Shown here: one piece after another, positions 637 to 24,918 of the stretch | How positions within the stretch are numbered: position 1 is the stretch's first letter | Layout of the letters: the number at the start of each line of letters is the position of its first letter | From: Rheinheimera sp. 1928-s | GTDB lineage: Bacteria; Pseudomonadota; Gammaproteobacteria; Enterobacterales; Alteromonadaceae | DNA: 64,000 nucleotides | Assembly: GCF_029269265.1 (NCBI RefSeq) | Contig: NZ_JARIXP010000004.1 | Span: forward strand, 434,001 to 498,000 | Direction of reading: 5' to 3' | The notes under the pieces: generated by a model | Seen by the model: only the letters and a program-made list of their open reading frames with translations | What the model was told of the DNA's origin: nothing | Database searches by the model: none | Program-made: the position numbers and the translations under genes

Positions 637-1464
637 TTAACCTAACAGTGACAAGGCCGCCTGTGGACGCTGATTCGCCTGAGACAGGATAGTGGTACTG
701 GCCTGTTGCAGGATCTGCGAACGAGTCAACTCTGCGGTTTCTTTAGCAAAATCAGTATCTCTGATCCGGCTACGCGCTGATGACACGTTTTCCACAATGT
801 TACTCAGGTTACGAATGGTAGATTGGAACCGGTTTTGTAAAGCACCCAGATCCGCTCTTGTGCTGTCGATAGTTTTGATTGCACTATCGATGCTGGCTAA
901 TGCAGCTGAAGCACCGCCTACACTGGATATCGATAAGTTATTGATACCCAAACCTGACGAACCAAAACCCCCACCAGTGCGTGATAAATTCACGCTGATA
1001 TTTTGTCCGGCATTGGCTCCCACCAGGAACTTGGCGGAGAACTTACCATCCAGCAGCTTAATGCCACCGAACTGAGTTGTTGTTGCAATACGGCTGATTT
1101 CCGTTTTCAGCGCTGATACTTCTTTTTGCAATGCAACCCGGTCTGCCGAACTATTGATACCATTTTGCGACTGTACTGCTAGTACCCGGATACGCTGCAG
1201 AGAGTTAGTAATCTCATCCATCGCGCCTTCGGCCGTTTGAGCCAGAGAAATGCCGTCGTTCGCATTGCTGATGGCCTGGTTCAAGCCGTTGATTTGGCTT
1301 GATAAACGGTTACTGATCTGTAAACCCGCCGCATCATCAGCTGCGCTGTTGATACGAAAACCTGATGATAAACGTTTAAACGCCGTATCCAATGAATTGC
1401 CAGATGTAATTAACTGACGTTGTGCATTGATCGCTGATACGTTGGTATTGACATATAATGACAT
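637..1464 (-). CDS. fliC: Flagellin
   Basis: Complete flagellin of 275 residues. The N-terminal D0/D1 region (about 1-140) and the C-terminal D1/D0 region (about 190-275, with [16 protein letters not shown] and the terminal ALSLLG) are present. The variable central domain is minimal, as in the short polar-filament flagellins of Alteromonadales. A GGAGGATGACACC ribosome site precedes the ATG. It is the most divergent of the three complete copies (MSLYVNTN start). Unlike its neighbours it has no recognisable sigma28 promoter in the 238-base gap upstream, and no terminator separates it from the preceding flagellin, so it may be co-transcribed with that gene. Confidence 0.95.
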
Positions 1465-1627
1465 GGTGTCATCCTCCGGTTAGTAAATAAGTAGCCATAA
1501 AGCCTTTCCTTTTTTCCTTTGGCAGGAGCTCCTCGCTATAGGTGCGTCAGAGCAGTGCCATAAAGTTGGTCGTACGGATCCGGCGCCCAATGCCTTCCAG
1601 ATCCAGTGCTGTTCGTGTTGTCCCCCT

Positions 1628-1658
1628 GGTAGTTGCTGCTTCTATCGCTTCAACTACC
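1628..1658. repeat. Hairpin in the flagellin-flagellin gap
   Basis: GGTAGTTG at 1628-1635 pairs perfectly with CAACTACC at 1651-1658 around a 15-base loop. It has no T-run on either strand, so it is not a typical intrinsic terminator. It may shape or stabilise the message between the two flagellin genes. Confidence 0.4.
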
Positions 1659-1702
1659 CTGGGTAAATTCAGTCGCTGAACTTAAACGTTCTGCTTTGTC
1701 CG

Positions 1703-2533
1703 TTACCCTTGTAACAATGACAATGCCGACTGAGGTCTCTGATTTGCCTGCGATAAGATAGTGGTGCTGGCCTGCTGCAATATCTGCGAGCGTGTCAGTT
1801 CAGCCGTTTCTTTCGCAAAATCTGTGTCTCTAATCCGGCTGCGAGCTGCCGAGATATTTTCCACAATGTTCGACAAGTTGCGGATCGTGGACTGAAAGCG
1901 GTTTTGAATCGCACCCAGGTCGGCTCGTTTGGAGTCGATGACGTTGATCGCACTGTCGATTTGTGCCAGAGCTCTGGAGGCGCCAGCTAAACTACTGATA
2001 CTTAAGCCCGCTATTCCTAGCCCAGATGCTCCGAAACCACCACCGGCTCTTGAGATATTCACACTGATGGTCTGGCCCGCATTGGCCCCCACCAGGAAAG
2101 TCGATGAATACATGCCGTCTAACAATTTCACACCACCAAACTGGGTGGTTGTGGCGATACGACTGATTTCAGTCTTTAACGCCGATACTTCTTTTTGCAG
2201 CGCTACGCGATCTGCCGAACTGTTAATGCCGTTCTGCGATTGCACAGCTAAGACCCTGATGCGCTGCAACGCATTGGTAATCTCATCCATGGCCCCTTCT
2301 GCCACCTGGGATAATGAAATGCCGTCATTGGCGTTTCGTATCGCCTGATCCAGGCCCTGTATCTGGGCGGTCAGGCGGTTACTGATCTGCAAACCAGCTG
2401 CGTCGTCTGCTGCGCTATTAATGCGAAAACCAGACGAAAGTCGTTGAAACGATGTATCAAGGGTTTTACCCGAGTTTATAAGTTGCCTCTGCGCATTCAG
2501 CGCCGAGACATTGGTATTTACAAATAACGCCAT
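1703..2533 (-). CDS. fliC: Flagellin
   Basis: Complete 276-residue flagellin with the usual N- and C-terminal D0/D1 helices and a short glycine-rich middle ([16 protein letters not shown]). By direct comparison it differs from the copy at 2782-3612 at about 14 positions, mostly conservative swaps, so the pair arose by recent duplication or is kept alike by gene conversion. It starts at an ATG behind a TCAGGAGAAATGAT ribosome site. A strong sigma28 promoter lies about 75 bases upstream. There is no terminator before the next flagellin. Confidence 0.95.
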
Positions 2534-2608
2534 ATCATTTCTCCTGAGCGTTTATTGAACAAAAAGTGGACACGTCATTTTATATTTAATCTAATCCACT
2601 CAATTACT

Positions 2609-2635
2609 GTATCGGCAAACAATATTGTTTCTTTA
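2609..2635 (-). promoter_or_regulatory. Sigma28 promoter of flagellin 1703-2533
   Basis: Minus-strand TAAAGAAA, 11 bases, GCCGATAC. Both boxes are near the FliA consensus with exact spacing. Confidence 0.8.
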
Positions 2636-2683
2636 GCTATTTTTTATAATTTATCAAACAAACATTCCACTATTAGATACAAA

Positions 2684-2715
2684 TAAAAAAGGCCATACGG
2701 TAAAGCCGTATGGCC
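2684..2715 (-). terminator. Rho-independent terminator after flagellin 2782-3612
   Basis: A 10-bp perfect stem (2691-2700 with 2706-2715) and 5-base loop are followed on the minus strand by six T. This separates the flagellin at 2782-3612 from the next one, which has its own promoter. Confidence 0.88.
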
Positions 2716-2781
2716 AAAGAGCATAAAGCTCAGGAGTCGTACTAAAGATCGATTCAATATGTAATATTTATTGTTGAGTAA

Positions 2782-3612
2782 TTAACCTTGTAACAAAGAC
2801 AGTGCAGACTGTGGTCTTTGATTCGCCTGGGACAGAATAGTAGTACTGGCCTGTTGCAAAATCTGCGCACGAGTTAAATCAGCTGTCTCTTTTGCGAAGT
2901 CGGTATCTTTGATCCGGCTTCGTGCTGCCGAAATATTTTCGACAATGTTCGATAAGTTACGAATAGTTGACTGGAAGCGGTTTTGAATCGCACCTAAGTC
3001 TGCCCGCTTGGAGTCAATGACGTTAATGGCACTGTCGATACTTGCCAGAGCTCTGGATGCACCAGCTAAACTACTGATACTTAAGCCTGCAATACCTAAA
3101 CCTGATGAACCAAAACCACCACCAGCTCTGGATATATTCACACTAATGGTCTGGCCCGCGTTAGCACCTACCAGGAAAGTGGAAGAGTACATACCATCCA
3201 GCAACTTCACACCACCAAACTGCGTTGTTGCGGCAATCCGGCTGATTTCTGCTTTTAACGCAGAGACTTCTTTTTGTAACGCAATACGGTCACTGGAACT
3301 GTTGATACCATTTTGTGACTGTACTGCAAGTACACGAATTCGTTGTAAGGCGTTGGTAATTTCATCCATCGCGCCTTCAGCAACCTGAGATAATGAAATA
3401 CCATCGTTCGCATTTCTTATTGCTTGATCCAAACCATTCACCTGGCTGGTCAAACGGTTACTGATTTGTAAGCCTGCAGCATCATCTGCAGCACTATTGA
3501 TACGGAAACCTGAAGATAAACGTTGAAACGCTGTATCTAATGATTTACCTGAATTGATTAGTTGCCTTTGGGCATTTAACGCCGAAACGTTAGTATTAAC
3601 AAATAAAGCCAT
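2782..3612 (-). CDS. fliC: Flagellin
   Basis: Complete 276-residue flagellin, about 95 percent identical to the copy at 1703-2533 (my residue-by-residue count of 14 differences). It has the full terminal D0/D1 segments and almost no variable domain. The ATG follows a CAGGAGATATATC ribosome site. It has its own sigma28 promoter about 170 bases upstream and its own terminator, so it is an independent transcription unit. In polar flagella of related genera one flagellin is usually needed for filament start and others for bulk; the sequence alone does not say which this is. Confidence 0.95.
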
Positions 3613-20448: not shown

Positions 20449-20907
20449 TTAATAGTACTTCACATTCTTTATGCGGCGAGCAGGTTGGCTGTTTAAATAC
20501 AGGTCATACACCTGTTTAAAATCCAGTTCCAGCTCTGTGGCGTATACATCGCCCACCGGATAAGTTTTCACTACCCGGGCACCACGAATAATGCCACTGA
20601 CAGAGGAGCTCAACTGGTCGTTGCCTACCATCATTTGCTGCATATTGGCGCGGGCGTCAATTCTTTGGCCATAAACCTGCTCTGCCAGCTCACGATAAGC
20701 CTCCAGCTTAGAGGCTTTCATCGCCATCAACATTCGTTCCTGCTCAGTGGCTCCAGGTTGTTGACTTAATGGCGCATAACCCACAGCTTTCAGTACCGGA
20801 AAACGTTCTGGTTCAACAGTTTCCCATTCTACATGCCGATCCGCTACCAAACTGCAGCCCGGTAATAAGGTCAGTAACAATGCGCTGATTGTCAGTTTGT
20901 TCATCAT
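20449..20907 (-). CDS. flgP: Flagellar outer-membrane lipoprotein FlgP (LPP20 family)
   Basis: FlgP, about 152 residues. The start at 20907 (MMNKLTISALLLTLLPGC) is preferred over 20964 because AGAGG lies 6 bases ahead and it gives a proper lipoprotein signal with lipidated Cys18. The LPP20-type core runs from AVGYAPLSQQPGATEQERMLMAMKASKLEAYRELAEQVYGQ to VYATELELDFKQVYDLY. In Vibrio and Campylobacter FlgP forms the basal disk under the outer membrane around the polar flagellum. It is divergent from flgT. Confidence 0.88.
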   Translation of the reverse strand: MMNKLTISALLLTLLPGCSLVADRHVEWETVEPERFPVLKAVGYAPLSQQPGATEQERMLMAMKASKLEAYRELAEQVYGQRIDARANMQQMMVGNDQLSSSVSGIIRGARVVKTYPVGDVYATELELDFKQVYDLYLNSQPARRIKNVKYY

Positions 20908-20953
20908 GGTGTGCCTCTGCCCACTTTCGCTTAATTTCATCAAGATAAAGAAT

Positions 20954-20968
20954 GCACAATCCATGCCT
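20954..20968 (-). promoter_or_regulatory. Sigma54-like promoter of flgP
   Basis: Minus-strand AGGCAT-GGATT-GTGC keeps GG-N10-GC, 47 bases before the flgP start. Confidence 0.5.
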
Positions 20969-21058: not shown

Positions 21059-22216
21059 ATGCGTCTATCTGCGCTCAGCTTATCAATGCTGGCATTGCCA
21101 CTGGTTTGTGGCAATGCCATGGCTGATTGGTACGAGGCAACAGGTCAGGCCGTGTTGCGCTCTGGTGATACTAAAGCAGCAAGAACAGCTGCCACCGAAG
21201 ATGCGGTGCGTAAAGCCCTGCTTTATTCAGGGGCCTCTATCCGCACAGTGCAACAAGTGACTGACGGCTTATTGACTCAGGAGTCTATGGTTTTACAAAC
21301 TCAGGGCGAAGTCCAGCATGTACAAATAGTCTCAGAGACTGAAGAATACGGCTATATCAATGTCACTATCCGTGCTGATATTTATCCGGATCAAAATCAG
21401 TGTGCCAATCTGCAACTGAAAAAAGAGCTACTGATCAGCCCATTTATCATTGAGAACCGTGAACAGGCTATTGCAGGGCAATTGTACGAGCTGGATCAAG
21501 CCAGTACCAGTTTGTTTATTCAGAAACTGGAAGAGTCCTCCGGTTCAAGCCTGATTAAACTGCTGCCTCAATCTATCAGGCAAAAAGAACTGAGTTATGC
21601 CGACCGCAGCGCCTTACAACGTAATTATGGCGGCCGCTATTTGCTCAAAGCCAGTTTGGGAGATGTCTCTTTAGGAGAGCGTGTTGGCAGCAACTGGACT
21701 TTTTGGTCCGACCCGGACCGTGAACGTTTTTATCAGCTGCAGCTGGAGTTATCTGATATTCAGGAACAAAAAGTATTGCTGAACCAGAAATATCAAACCT
21801 CTGCCGTATGGGGTTTTCGTGACACTACAGTGATCAGTCCAAAAACCCAGCGTTTCTGGCAAACAGACTACGGCAGGTCCATCGAGCGGGTATTAAACGC
21901 AGCAGCTCAGGATGTAGAAGAAGCGTTACGCTGTGAAACCATACTGGCTGATATCACTCTGGTGGATCAGCACAAAGTGCTGTTGAACCTTGGCAGCAAA
22001 CAAGGGTTAAAACTTGGCGACGAACTTACTATTCTGCATCGTCGCCAGCACAAAGACAGTTTAGGTCAATTGCAGGATCAACTGACTATCAGTGAACTGA
22101 AAGTGAAAGTGACTGAACTGACCCATCAGAACGCCTGGGCACAGAGTGTGAATATGGACTTATTAGCTAATGTTCAGGTTGGCGATGCAGCAACTTTGGT
22201 CCAAGAGCAAAGGTAG
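21059..22216 (+). CDS. flgT: Flagellar H-ring protein FlgT
   Basis: FlgT, 385 residues, builds the H ring around the LP ring of polar sheathed-type motors and helps recruit the stator rings. A Sec signal peptide (about 1-22, ending GNAMA) is followed by an N-terminal domain (ATGQAVLRSGDTKAARTAATEDAVRKALLYSGA), a middle domain (about 130-270), and a C-terminal beta domain (LLNLGSKQGLKLGDELTIL). The start is immediately preceded by GAGGATTTGTC. Confidence 0.92.
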   Translation: MRLSALSLSMLALPLVCGNAMADWYEATGQAVLRSGDTKAARTAATEDAVRKALLYSGASIRTVQQVTDGLLTQESMVLQTQGEVQHVQIVSETEEYGYINVTIRADIYPDQNQCANLQLKKELLISPFIIENREQAIAGQLYELDQASTSLFIQKLEESSGSSLIKLLPQSIRQKELSYADRSALQRNYGGRYLLKASLGDVSLGERVGSNWTFWSDPDRERFYQLQLELSDIQEQKVLLNQKYQTSAVWGFRDTTVISPKTQRFWQTDYGRSIERVLNAAAQDVEEALRCETILADITLVDQHKVLLNLGSKQGLKLGDELTILHRRQHKDSLGQLQDQLTISELKVKVTELTHQNAWAQSVNMDLLANVQVGDAATLVQEQR

Positions 22217-22354: not shown

Positions 22355-22429
22355 CGCTCCATAGTTAAATGGATATAACGGCCCCCTCCTAAGGGGCAGT
22401 TACAGGTTCGATTCCTGTTGGGGCGGCCA
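22355..22429 (+). tRNA. tRNA-Arg (anticodon CCU)
   Basis: A 75-base tRNA including an encoded CCA. The acceptor stem is CGCTCCA paired with TGGGGCG. The D arm is GTTAAATGGATATAAC. The anticodon stem GCCCC/GGGGC encloses loop CTCCTAA with anticodon CCT at 22388-22390. The T arm is ACAGGTTCGATTCCTGT and the discriminator base is G. It reads AGG codons. It lies alone between flgT and the flgO genes. Confidence 0.95.
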
Positions 22430-22488: not shown

Positions 22489-23400
22489 TTACAGCTGTTG
22501 TAACACCAAAGCCGGAATTAACGTACTTGCTGAGCTGATGACGACATTATTCCTGGTAGAAACCACTCTGCTGGTGATTTGCAAACCACGACGTGTCGGA
22601 GTCATAGTACCTGTCAGGACATAATCAATGCCCTGAGGATTTCTGAGTTTTGATGTAGTGCGGGATAAAGATAAATCGCCTGTTGGACCTACAGTAATAT
22701 TTTTCGTCAGTTTGTATTCAATCACTGCAGCACCATAACCAGGCAATACGGTACTCAACTCTTCAGCAAGCTGGTTACCTATTGTGCTGGTGTGTTCAAG
22801 CTGCGAATCAAACAAAACAAAACTCGCTACCCCTACTTTGGCGCCCTGCAATTGCTGATTTCCGGCCAGTTTAAAGGCCAGTTGCGCCACATAGTCACTC
22901 AATGATTTACGGCTTTGAATGAACTGGGGAGCCGAGTTATACAACTGAGGATCTGCAGCAGCCACAGCTAATTCAGAAGGTAAAGTTCTGCGGCTAAATT
23001 GTTTTACCCTCAAACCCGGAATAGGCTGACCATTGTTCACTGCAGCACTGTCTAATTGAGACTGCTGTGTCATACCCATGGCAGGCTCAGCCTCCTGAAA
23101 AGGTTGAGTCAGGCCAAACCATTCAGTGTCTCTGTTCTGTGTCGTTGCACTTTGTGTGTGGGAGCTTTCGGATGAAGAATCAGAGTCACATTTACAAAGT
23201 TCAGTGGATGAGCTGACCACTACGGAGCTTTCAGTGAAACCTTCGTCAGCCATCTGGTGGCTATCAGCTGTAGCAGACGAACTGGGGGTAACTTCTGTAC
23301 TGCCAGTGCTTGAAGCAGCGCAACCGGATAAACACAGCACAGCTGCTATTAACAGTGCTTTGGCTGATTCAGAGGCCATAGTTGAATTCAATGAGTTCAT
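22489..23400 (-). CDS. flgO: FlgO-family flagellar outer-membrane lipoprotein, long form
   Basis: About 303 residues. The ATG at 23400 (weak GGAT site) is preferred to a TTG at 23418. The lipobox CLSGC gives lipidated Cys27. A long low-complexity Ser/Thr/Glu linker (about 28-110, with CKCDSDSSSESS) precedes a C-terminal FlgO domain (about 150-303: SDYVAQLAFKLAG, VGVASFVLFD, GDLSLSR, YVLTGTM, ISSASTLIPALV). FlgO in Vibrio is an outer-membrane protein needed for full motility. It is the last of three adjacent FlgO-type genes and starts 22 bases after the second. Confidence 0.85.
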   Translation of the reverse strand: MNSLNSTMASESAKALLIAAVLCLSGCAASSTGSTEVTPSSSATADSHQMADEGFTESSVVVSSSTELCKCDSDSSSESSHTQSATTQNRDTEWFGLTQPFQEAEPAMGMTQQSQLDSAAVNNGQPIPGLRVKQFSRRTLPSELAVAAADPQLYNSAPQFIQSRKSLSDYVAQLAFKLAGNQQLQGAKVGVASFVLFDSQLEHTSTIGNQLAEELSTVLPGYGAAVIEYKLTKNITVGPTGDLSLSRTTSKLRNPQGIDYVLTGTMTPTRRGLQITSRVVSTRNNVVISSASTLIPALVLQQL

Positions 23401-23422
23401 AAAGTTATCCAGTTTCAACCTG

Positions 23423-24169
23423 TTAAGGTGTCCCAGCTGCTTTTAACTGCAACAAAGGTGCACTATGTGTTGCCTTTAACGCCTGCACCACATTTTGTGG
23501 AATAAAGGCCTGGGCCGATGCCAGCACTTTTTTATCGTTTACATTGACCATTCTGGCATTAACAATAACGCCACCATGATGGCGAACTAAGGTTCCGCCC
23601 AACACAACACTAATGGGGTACTGCTGAGTCAGCTCAAGGAAATCGCGGCTAAAGGTAAAATCACCAGTGGGAGTCACTCGAATATAATCTGTGGTTTTAA
23701 AATCTGTTACCGCTATACCAAACTGTGTAGCTTCATGCATAAAAGCCTCTGAGAGTTGATTCCCCAACAAATCACCTTGCTGGTAATCCCCGTCCAGATA
23801 AACAAAACTAGTCACCCCTACACTAAAAGTTGTACTTAACACTTCCAGATTGGCCGCTAAATCATGCATCAGACTTTGCACATAGTGATTGACCGTAATG
23901 GCAGGTTCAGGCTTGTAGCTATGTAACTTCATTCCTGCCATCCGGGCGTTTTGTACTGTGGCGCTATCGTATTGATTAACATAAAGCTCGTCCGAACTCG
24001 CTACAGGTTGATCCTTTTTATAGGTCACACGGCCTTGTTGCAGCTCAACCTTGTTGGCTGGCAAAGCAGGCCTGCCTTCAGAGTCAGTATCAATCAAAGG
24101 CGTACAACCGGAAACAGAGGCAACAGCAATGATGCTGCACAAAACAAAAAGCTGGTTATAGGTAGTCAT
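23423..24169 (-). CDS. FlgO-family lipoprotein, second paralogue
   Basis: 248 residues with lipobox SVSGC, lipidated Cys22. The FlgO domain spans about 95-245: NHYVQSLMHDLAANLE, VGVTSFVYLDGDYQQGDLLGNQLSEAF, RVTPTGDFTFSRDFLEL, VVLGGTLVRHHGGVIVNARMVNVNDKKVLASAQAFIPQNVV. Alignment by eye with the neighbours shows the same order of strands and helices. It starts 3 bases after the stop of the first FlgO gene, with GGAG 9 bases before the ATG, so it is co-transcribed. Confidence 0.85.
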   Translation of the reverse strand: MTTYNQLFVLCSIIAVASVSGCTPLIDTDSEGRPALPANKVELQQGRVTYKKDQPVASSDELYVNQYDSATVQNARMAGMKLHSYKPEPAITVNHYVQSLMHDLAANLEVLSTTFSVGVTSFVYLDGDYQQGDLLGNQLSEAFMHEATQFGIAVTDFKTTDYIRVTPTGDFTFSRDFLELTQQYPISVVLGGTLVRHHGGVIVNARMVNVNDKKVLASAQAFIPQNVVQALKATHSAPLLQLKAAGTP

Positions 24170-24172
24170 CGA

Positions 24173-24769
24173 TTAAGACTCCGAATTGCGATACAACTTA
24201 TTATGGCGCAACTGCAACTGTTCGTTTGGCCATAACACATCTACAGGAATAACACTGGAAGCCGCAGCTAACACTTGCTGGCTTTTCAGGTCGATTAATT
24301 TGGCATTGACCGTGATATAGACTTCGCCTTCGGTCAGGGTTCCGGTGATCACATAACGCGCCTGTTGATTTTGTGCCAACAGACTTAAATCGCGTCCTAA
24401 CGAATTTTCATAGCCTGTATGCACTAACACCGCATCATTTAAACGTATTTCACTCACCTGATACCCCAGTTGAGTAGCGACAGTTTGCATACTTTCCTGC
24501 AACTGCAGGGAGGCATTGTAGCTGGAATTGCGGCTGGTATCAGGAGCCATCAATTGCACGTCAGCAAAAGTAGTGACGGCTATAGCGCCGGATTCCAGAG
24601 GCTGTAATTTGTGAAACAGCTGATCAGCCAGCCGCTCGGTATAAAACAATAAGGGAGGATGCTGCGCCGCTTTTGAGAGTTCCACAGGATCGGCAAGATC
24701 TTGCCCTTGCGGCAAAGAACTGCAGCTGCATAACAGCAGTACTGTAATGACTGACCCGAATATTCGCAC
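24173..24769 (-). CDS. FlgO-family lipoprotein, first paralogue (short)
   Basis: 198 residues from a GTG start with GGGGG five bases ahead. The signal peptide ends LLCSC, lipidated Cys16. Almost the whole mature protein is the FlgO domain: YTERLADQLFHKLQPLESGAIAVTTFADV, LQESMQTVATQLGYQVSEIRLNDAVLV, ARYVITGTLTEGEVYITVNAKLIDLKSQQVLAAASSVIPVDVLW. It is the promoter-proximal gene of the trio, behind a strong sigma54 site. Confidence 0.85.
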   Translation of the reverse strand: MRIFGSVITVLLLCSCSSLPQGQDLADPVELSKAAQHPPLLFYTERLADQLFHKLQPLESGAIAVTTFADVQLMAPDTSRNSSYNASLQLQESMQTVATQLGYQVSEIRLNDAVLVHTGYENSLGRDLSLLAQNQQARYVITGTLTEGEVYITVNAKLIDLKSQQVLAAASSVIPVDVLWPNEQLQLRHNKLYRNSES

Positions 24770-24817
24770 TGTAGCCCCCGGTGTTGGTGTTGCTTGCTGA
24801 TCACTGTCAGATACACA

Positions 24818-24832
24818 GCAAAATTAATGCCA
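24818..24832 (-). promoter_or_regulatory. Sigma54 promoter of the flgO trio
   Basis: Minus-strand TGGCAT-TAATT-TTGC is a near-consensus -24/-12 element 49 bases before the GTG start of the first flgO-type gene. It ties the trio to the flagellar regulon. Confidence 0.8.
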
Positions 24833-24897: not shown

Positions 24898-24918
24898 GGG
24901 AGGGGACAAGCCCCTCCC
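24898..24918. repeat. REP-like palindrome after thyA
   Basis: GGGAGGGG (24898-24905) and CCCCTCCC (24911-24918) form a perfect 8-bp arm around ACAAG, just past the thyA stop. There is no T-run, so it resembles an extragenic palindrome more than a terminator. Confidence 0.5.

Follow-up and report, generated by a model that had tools for sequence, protein, structure and literature searches.

The outer-membrane discs of polar flagellar motors differ between species in width and in ring number. Such species differences have been described for the discs, as has an Arcobacter motor with 5–6 concentric outer-membrane rings, which are suspected to contain FlgO (PMC5758724). In a review, FlgO is assigned to the outer portion of the H-ring (PMC7990780). 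For Vibrio-type species, a BLAST survey that names one candidate per species gives one FlgO candidate each (PMC6375700), and the flgO promoter of V. fischeri is reported to be FlrA-dependent (PMC3948606). Duplication of flgO as such is already known from Arcobacter, where flgO′ was described as a potential paralog of flgO that likely belongs to the same operon (PMC9321776). In the excerpts available from open-licence papers, no set of gammaproteobacterial FlgO paralogs was found, and no structural paper on FlgO was found among such papers.

The locus described here is part of a 64-kb stretch of genomic DNA from Rheinheimera sp. 1928-s—the whole of which is called the window in the following. 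It holds three FlgO genes, flgO-A, flgO-B, and flgO-C, on the minus strand between the thymidylate synthase gene thyA (25760–24927, recognised by eye) and flgT (Table 1). A preliminary description of this DNA had claimed three adjacent lipoprotein genes spaced 3 and 22 bases apart, each encoding its own lipobox followed by a short, a medium, or a long Ser-rich linker, and these claims are borne out. The three ORFs are found at that place and on that strand; the lipoboxes read LCSC in A, VSGC in B, and LSGC in C; and the mature protein has approximately 24 residues in A, 73 in B, and 140 in C ahead of the first domain helix or its equivalent, with 19 Ser among the first 66 mature residues of FlgO-C. 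The gap between flgO-A and flgO-B is 3 bases, and that between flgO-B and flgO-C is 22 when counted to the ATG of FlgO-C at 23400, which is preceded by GGAT. An alternative TTG start at 23418, six codons upstream of this ATG, would give a protein of 309 aa and a gap of 4 bases. One correction applies to the start codon of FlgO-A, which is GTG. With no Asp at the +2 position in any of the three, FlgO-A, -B, and -C are predicted outer-membrane lipoproteins. Directly downstream of thyA, between this gene and the sigma54-type site of Table 1, lies a GC-rich palindrome (24898–24918) without a T run.

Table 1 Features of the FlgO locus and its surroundings. Positions are those of the window, except for the fourth lipoprotein ORF, which is given by locus in three other genomes of the genus.
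Feature	Position	Strand	Remarks
Sigma54-type (-24/-12) promoter-like site, TGGCATTAATTTTGCT	24817..24832	(-)	10/11 consensus positions; 47 nt upstream of flgO-A
FlgO-A, short-linker FlgO-family lipoprotein	24173..24769	(-)	198 aa, GTG start; Pfam FlgO 102.2 bits
FlgO-B, medium-linker FlgO-family lipoprotein	23423..24169	(-)	248 aa; Pfam FlgO 146.3 bits
FlgO-C, long Ser-rich-linker FlgO-family lipoprotein	22489..23400	(-)	303 aa from ATG; Pfam FlgO 116.3 bits
Cys-Lys-Cys in FlgO-C linker	23188..23196	(-)	mature residues 43-45
FlgT H-ring protein	21059..22216	(+)	divergent from flgP, no flgO between
FlgP (LPP20 family) H-ring lipoprotein	20449..20964	(-)	separate unit from trio
Fourth lipoprotein ORF	L085:6454-6888; L077:5499-5933; L086:2176-2628	(+); (-); (-)	between flgO-B and flgO-C

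All three proteins, and not only one of them, match the FlgO family in a profile search, with scores above the curated cut-off of Pfam PF17680 (22.6 bits). Since all three pass, the possibility that there is only one true FlgO among them is rejected. Across the genome, a profile search at E ≤ 0.001 returns these three FlgO genes and no other; in NCBIfam, FlgO-A, -B, and -C have no match near its cut-offs. Furthermore, phmmer aligns each protein to the solved FlgO chain 9yfg_Hb, with E values of 2.3e-8 (A), 1.5e-28 (B), and 3.6e-12 (C). The solved entries matched in this way contain on average 58 FlgO chains per entry—and, in those that include the other ring proteins, 58 FlgP and 26 FlgT chains. 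These assemblies contain one FlgO type; hence, a single type can be enough.

The trees resolve A, B, and C as distinct ortholog groups, which extend across several genera of the family and are older than the genus. For this comparison, 168 rows were collected and 31 identical rows removed. In a tree of 47 rows—chosen from 137, with L109, L110, L115, and the first gene of both L098 and L102 left out—each group is set apart by a branch, A with a support of 100/98, B with 99/93, and C with 94/92, and B joins the canonical single FlgO copies at 92/86, whereby the support for C and for B with the canonical copies falls under the starred level. A larger tree of 134 rows, from which the three rows of L122 were excluded for their long branches, agrees for A, B, and most of C and brings B and the canonical copies together in a group of 50 rows (SH-aLRT 92). 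For four trios (L098, L102, L109, and L110), the third kind of gene lies outside group C and forms a small separate clade in this larger tree (SH-aLRT 91), which suggests that C may differ in gene identity between trios. In both trees, the separation of A, B, and C predates the genera sampled, and a recent local triplication is thereby rejected. B is the likely FlgO ortholog by these comparisons, and A and C are divergent. Within the domain, B keeps the canonical pattern GDF.fSRD; C keeps GD and SR, not F and D, and A is without GD. Values of dN/dS between the copies of the window and their close relatives range from 0 to 0.09 for A, from 0.04 to 0.10 for B, and from 0.06 to 0.16 for C (far pairs being saturated) and show purifying selection on all three. 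That the three are interchangeable FlgO subunits, serving redundancy or dosage, might be suggested by the adjacency of the genes, their common domain, and the one promoter-like site in the genus. It is nevertheless improbable, since the ortholog groups predate the genus and bear their own motifs and linkers, since each copy is under purifying selection, and since the alignments give B of the window an identity of 25% with A and 30% with C.

The trio is not confined to this genome: a survey of copy numbers among relatives shows it to be an old set, found throughout the genus and common in the family. A search with FlgO-B brought up nine relatives, seven of them Rheinheimera and two metagenome assemblies. 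Three FlgO genes are present in 22/22 genomes of the genus, one having a frameshift-split A and one its C on another contig, and the trio is contiguous in 21 of these 22 loci, while the remaining locus reaches the end of its contig after B. The split flgO-A, in L074, could reflect either an error of sequencing or a gene lost recently. Among 147 genomes drawn from the family, there are at least three FlgO matches in 86, two in 20, one in 27, and none in 14. The class of at least three is to be read as an upper bound, as the count takes in weak hits: a spot check of 10 family genomes met eight matches of 22–29 bits within open frames of 175–779 aa, some of which are other proteins. Across the order, a FlgO match occurs in 172 of 295 genomes; counted by eye, those outside the family have one match in 128 genomes, two in 10, and at least three in 11, the last being five genomes in each of two families (f9 and f16) and one weak case in a third (f4). 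A single FlgO match is the rule elsewhere in the order, and at least three matches are the commonest state in the family. FlgP does not follow this pattern. Matches to LPP20 number one in 18 of the 22 genus genomes, three in three, and none in one, with the cut-off attained in 12 of the 22; a parallel triplication, by which extra FlgP copies would pair with the extra FlgO copies, was considered and rejected on this count.

The place of the trio departs from that of the usual flgO as well. In the sampled loci of other families, a single flgO mostly lies between flgT and flgP and is divergent from flgT, which is a trait of the usual locus and not of the protein family. Family f9 (L116–L120) shows a different arrangement of duplicated FlgO, with one divergent copy before flgP and another after it. 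In the window, the trio is found outside this canonical place, on the far side of flgT from flgP and past a tRNA gene. Of the 22 genus loci, 13 contain both flgT and flgP, and in these the two genes are divergent neighbours without any flgO in between. Flagellin, CheR, and a CheW-plus-receiver protein are encoded nearby, together with further flagellar genes recognised by eye, and MotY_N has two matches in the genome. Going by these matches, the genome has the H/T-ring motor proteins FlgO, FlgP, FlgT, and MotY. Elsewhere in the window (637–3612), three adjacent ORFs of 275–276 aa occupy the minus strand, and the one tested is a flagellin. The tRNA gene between flgO-C and flgT, tRNA-Arg(CCT) at 22355–22429, looks like an insertion hotspot (L138–L142): the distance from flgO-C to this tRNA ranges from 6.6 to ~72 kb in the four relatives examined, with a phage-type integrase beside the tRNA in one relative and a DegT-type aminotransferase or methyltransferase gene nearby in two.

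Of 15 further family loci that carry two or three FlgO genes, 14 showed neither flgT nor flgP in the fetched stretch. This fits the idea that A and C have left the flagellum for another envelope function and stand beside B by history only. In the genus, however, the trio has its sigma54-type site, lies beside flagellar genes, and is present where the canonical flgO is absent, all of which makes such a departure highly improbable.

Placing the trio under one sigma54 promoter, as the preliminary description did, is justified in part. A candidate site is present upstream of flgO-A, yet a consensus scan of the window that allows up to 2 mismatches gives 52 matches against 60.6 expected, hence no excess over shuffled DNA; four sites score 10/11. 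Hence, as the number of matches is no better than chance, the site proves nothing by consensus alone. Its conservation is more telling: upstream of flgO-A, the best site scores 10–11/11 in 22/22 loci of the genus, which only 0–4 of 100 shuffles of the respective upstream region attain. Although the window by itself would allow for a chance sigma54 site, this conservation makes one unlikely, and within the genus a putative -24/-12 element of sigma54 type is conserved upstream of the trio. The distance from the start of the site to the FlgO domain is 189 nt in 12 of these loci, 184–185 in three, and 238–254 in seven. The arrangement is not general outside the genus, where at least 10/11 is found in 4 of 23 family loci and the remainder scores 8–9, which shuffles easily reach. 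In the interval between flgP and flgT, the best sigma54-type matches score 8–10/11 in 13 loci, a range obtained without shuffle control.

AlphaFold models of A and C, built from alignments with relatives, are of middling confidence, with a mean pLDDT of 71.1 for A and 68.7 for C and a pTM of 0.66 and 0.49, respectively. Most of the domain exceeds a pLDDT of 80 in both models and has a weak middle stretch, and the linkers are mostly below 65. The predicted folds resemble those of PelC, CsgG, LpoB, TolB, and FlgT. PelC and CsgG serve other pathways, and LpoB is the activator of PBP1b. For C, the best match is the C-terminal domain of LpoB (Foldseek E 9.6e-7; Z 12.2, rmsd 2.8, 122 residues), followed by TolB (Z 9.6) and PelC (Z 8.0), with FlgT ranking between the latter two; in Foldseek, A matches PelC and LpoB. 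Entry 9yfg and related FlgO entries are absent among the listed matches of the fold search. The same Pfam FlgO domain occurs in all three, and the predicted folds of A and C resemble those of ring-forming outer-membrane lipoproteins, among others, which agrees with the preliminary description.

This ranking brings in the main rival to a disc built from all three proteins. Only B would be a ring subunit, and A and C would be accessory lipoproteins of flagellum assembly, of which C would act in the manner of LpoB. Anchored in the outer membrane, it would extend by a long disordered stretch and pass a small globular domain through the peptidoglycan to a partner—for which a peptidoglycan synthase, the P-ring, or a stator is proposed—and so open or brace the wall where the flagellum sits. 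LpoB ranks above TolB and PelC as structural match, the model of C has the same architecture of ~140 mostly low-confidence residues followed by a domain, and the spacer varies in length while the domain is kept. The fold is, however, common to many proteins, and a canonical FlgO domain may match LpoB as well. The sequence of C scores 116 bits for Pfam FlgO and has no LpoB model listed at E ≤ 10; moreover, A is almost without a linker and matches PelC rings about equally to LpoB. We regard a wall link or assembly aid of this kind as unlikely.

FlgO-C is the only one of the three with a conserved CxC. When identical domains are removed and one C on another contig is excluded, all distinct C copies of the genus (20/20) have exactly two cysteines besides the lipid Cys, arranged as CxC; of the 21 copies each of A and B, 16 and 19, respectively, are free of extra cysteines. 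In nine C copies, the CxC begins at mature residue 5, at 43–46 in five (that of the window included), and at 167–209 in six. These six long forms hold an extra helical, coiled-coil-like module, which a profile search detects in 6 of the 22 genus genomes. Outside the genus, the module matches strongly (54–63 bits) in three genomes of another genus (g14) in the family draw, where it is again part of the third FlgO gene of a trio, and weakly (20–32 bits) in 13 further family genomes. The distribution suggests either an old part of C that was lost in the subclade of the window or a module that was gained twice. In three genomes of the genus, a separate lipoprotein ORF of ~145–150 aa within the trio resembles this module (hhalign probability 71%, E 3.8e-5, coiled-coil-like sequence), the kinship being moderate. 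Pfam has no above-cut-off match for the helical module of C or for the fourth lipoprotein ORF, and a sequence search of the PDB with the module profile gives nothing better than E 0.32. The window itself holds neither of the two, which together are the least expected result of this analysis. Two cysteines in the N-terminal part, separated by nine residues, occur in the first FlgO of the differently ordered trios L098 and L102 and in the lone copy of L115; this pair is a possible independent counterpart of the CxC.

The reading we favour, and hold to be moderately likely, is that the outer H-ring disc has A, B, and C as three non-redundant subunits, whose joint production is under sigma54 flagellar control, with B as FlgO proper. 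The three genes would be co-transcribed from the sigma54-type promoter, and their products would be delivered to the outer membrane along the usual lipoprotein pathway and form, together with FlgP and FlgT, the outer part of the H-ring disc at the polar motor. B would perform the role of the single FlgO in other bacteria. A, having almost no linker, would be held near the membrane, and the long flexible linker of C could let its domain sit deeper in the periplasm; C would thus have a variable-length spacer, with a possible cross-link through its CxC. A and C might thus occupy different places in the disc—either positions within a mixed ring or extra concentric or stacked rings—and a mixed or layered assembly of the three is plausible. 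The trio would take the place of the single copy that better-known relatives have, and the disc around the motor would probably be more complex as a result. This reading is slightly weakened because most family loci outside the genus lack a comparable sigma54-type site and because C is not one clean group; the 27 of 147 family genomes with a single FlgO match, the solved assemblies with one FlgO type, and the 14 family loci without flgT or flgP in the fetched stretch also count against it.

A more specific form of this disc reading is tentative and rather doubtful: the disc would have three tiers or three rings, with A, B, and C as its dedicated subunits and C acting as a length-tunable, disulphide- or metal-linked tether. 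The tether would vary in length in that the CxC starts near the lipid anchor, in the middle range, or far from it, partly through the helical module. If true, the depth or width of the disc would be encoded by this gene set.

Whichever form applies, the family offers a natural experiment, as genomes with one, two, or at least three FlgO matches exist side by side, which allows the number of paralogs to be set against the number of rings and the torque. The trio also calls for caution against assuming one FlgO per motor when H-rings are annotated or modelled.

Of the systems to which the trio can be compared, LpoB shares the predicted fold of C and its architecture of lipoprotein, linker, and domain, but is a non-flagellar protein, and C has no such Pfam match. 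The ring lipoproteins PelC and CsgG share the fold of the A and C models, whereas no such Pfam match is found for the trio. The genes flgO and flgO′ of Arcobacter, a precedent for the trio, are likewise FlgO paralogs in a likely operon; these, however, are two copies in another phylum, are likened here by description and not by sequence, and no FlgP or FlgT was found there (PMC9321776). With the FlgO of Vibrio, the trio has in common the PF17680 domain, the lipobox, the flagellar context, and the companions FlgP, FlgT, and MotY; B also groups with the canonical single copies, at a support under the starred level. Vibrio, however, has a single flgO, which lies next to flgT as part of an flgOP unit (PMC3948606), whereas three paralogs in a separate unit are found here. 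What is new is, hence, the set of three paralogs, the lack of a canonical copy, and the variable length of the proposed C tether.
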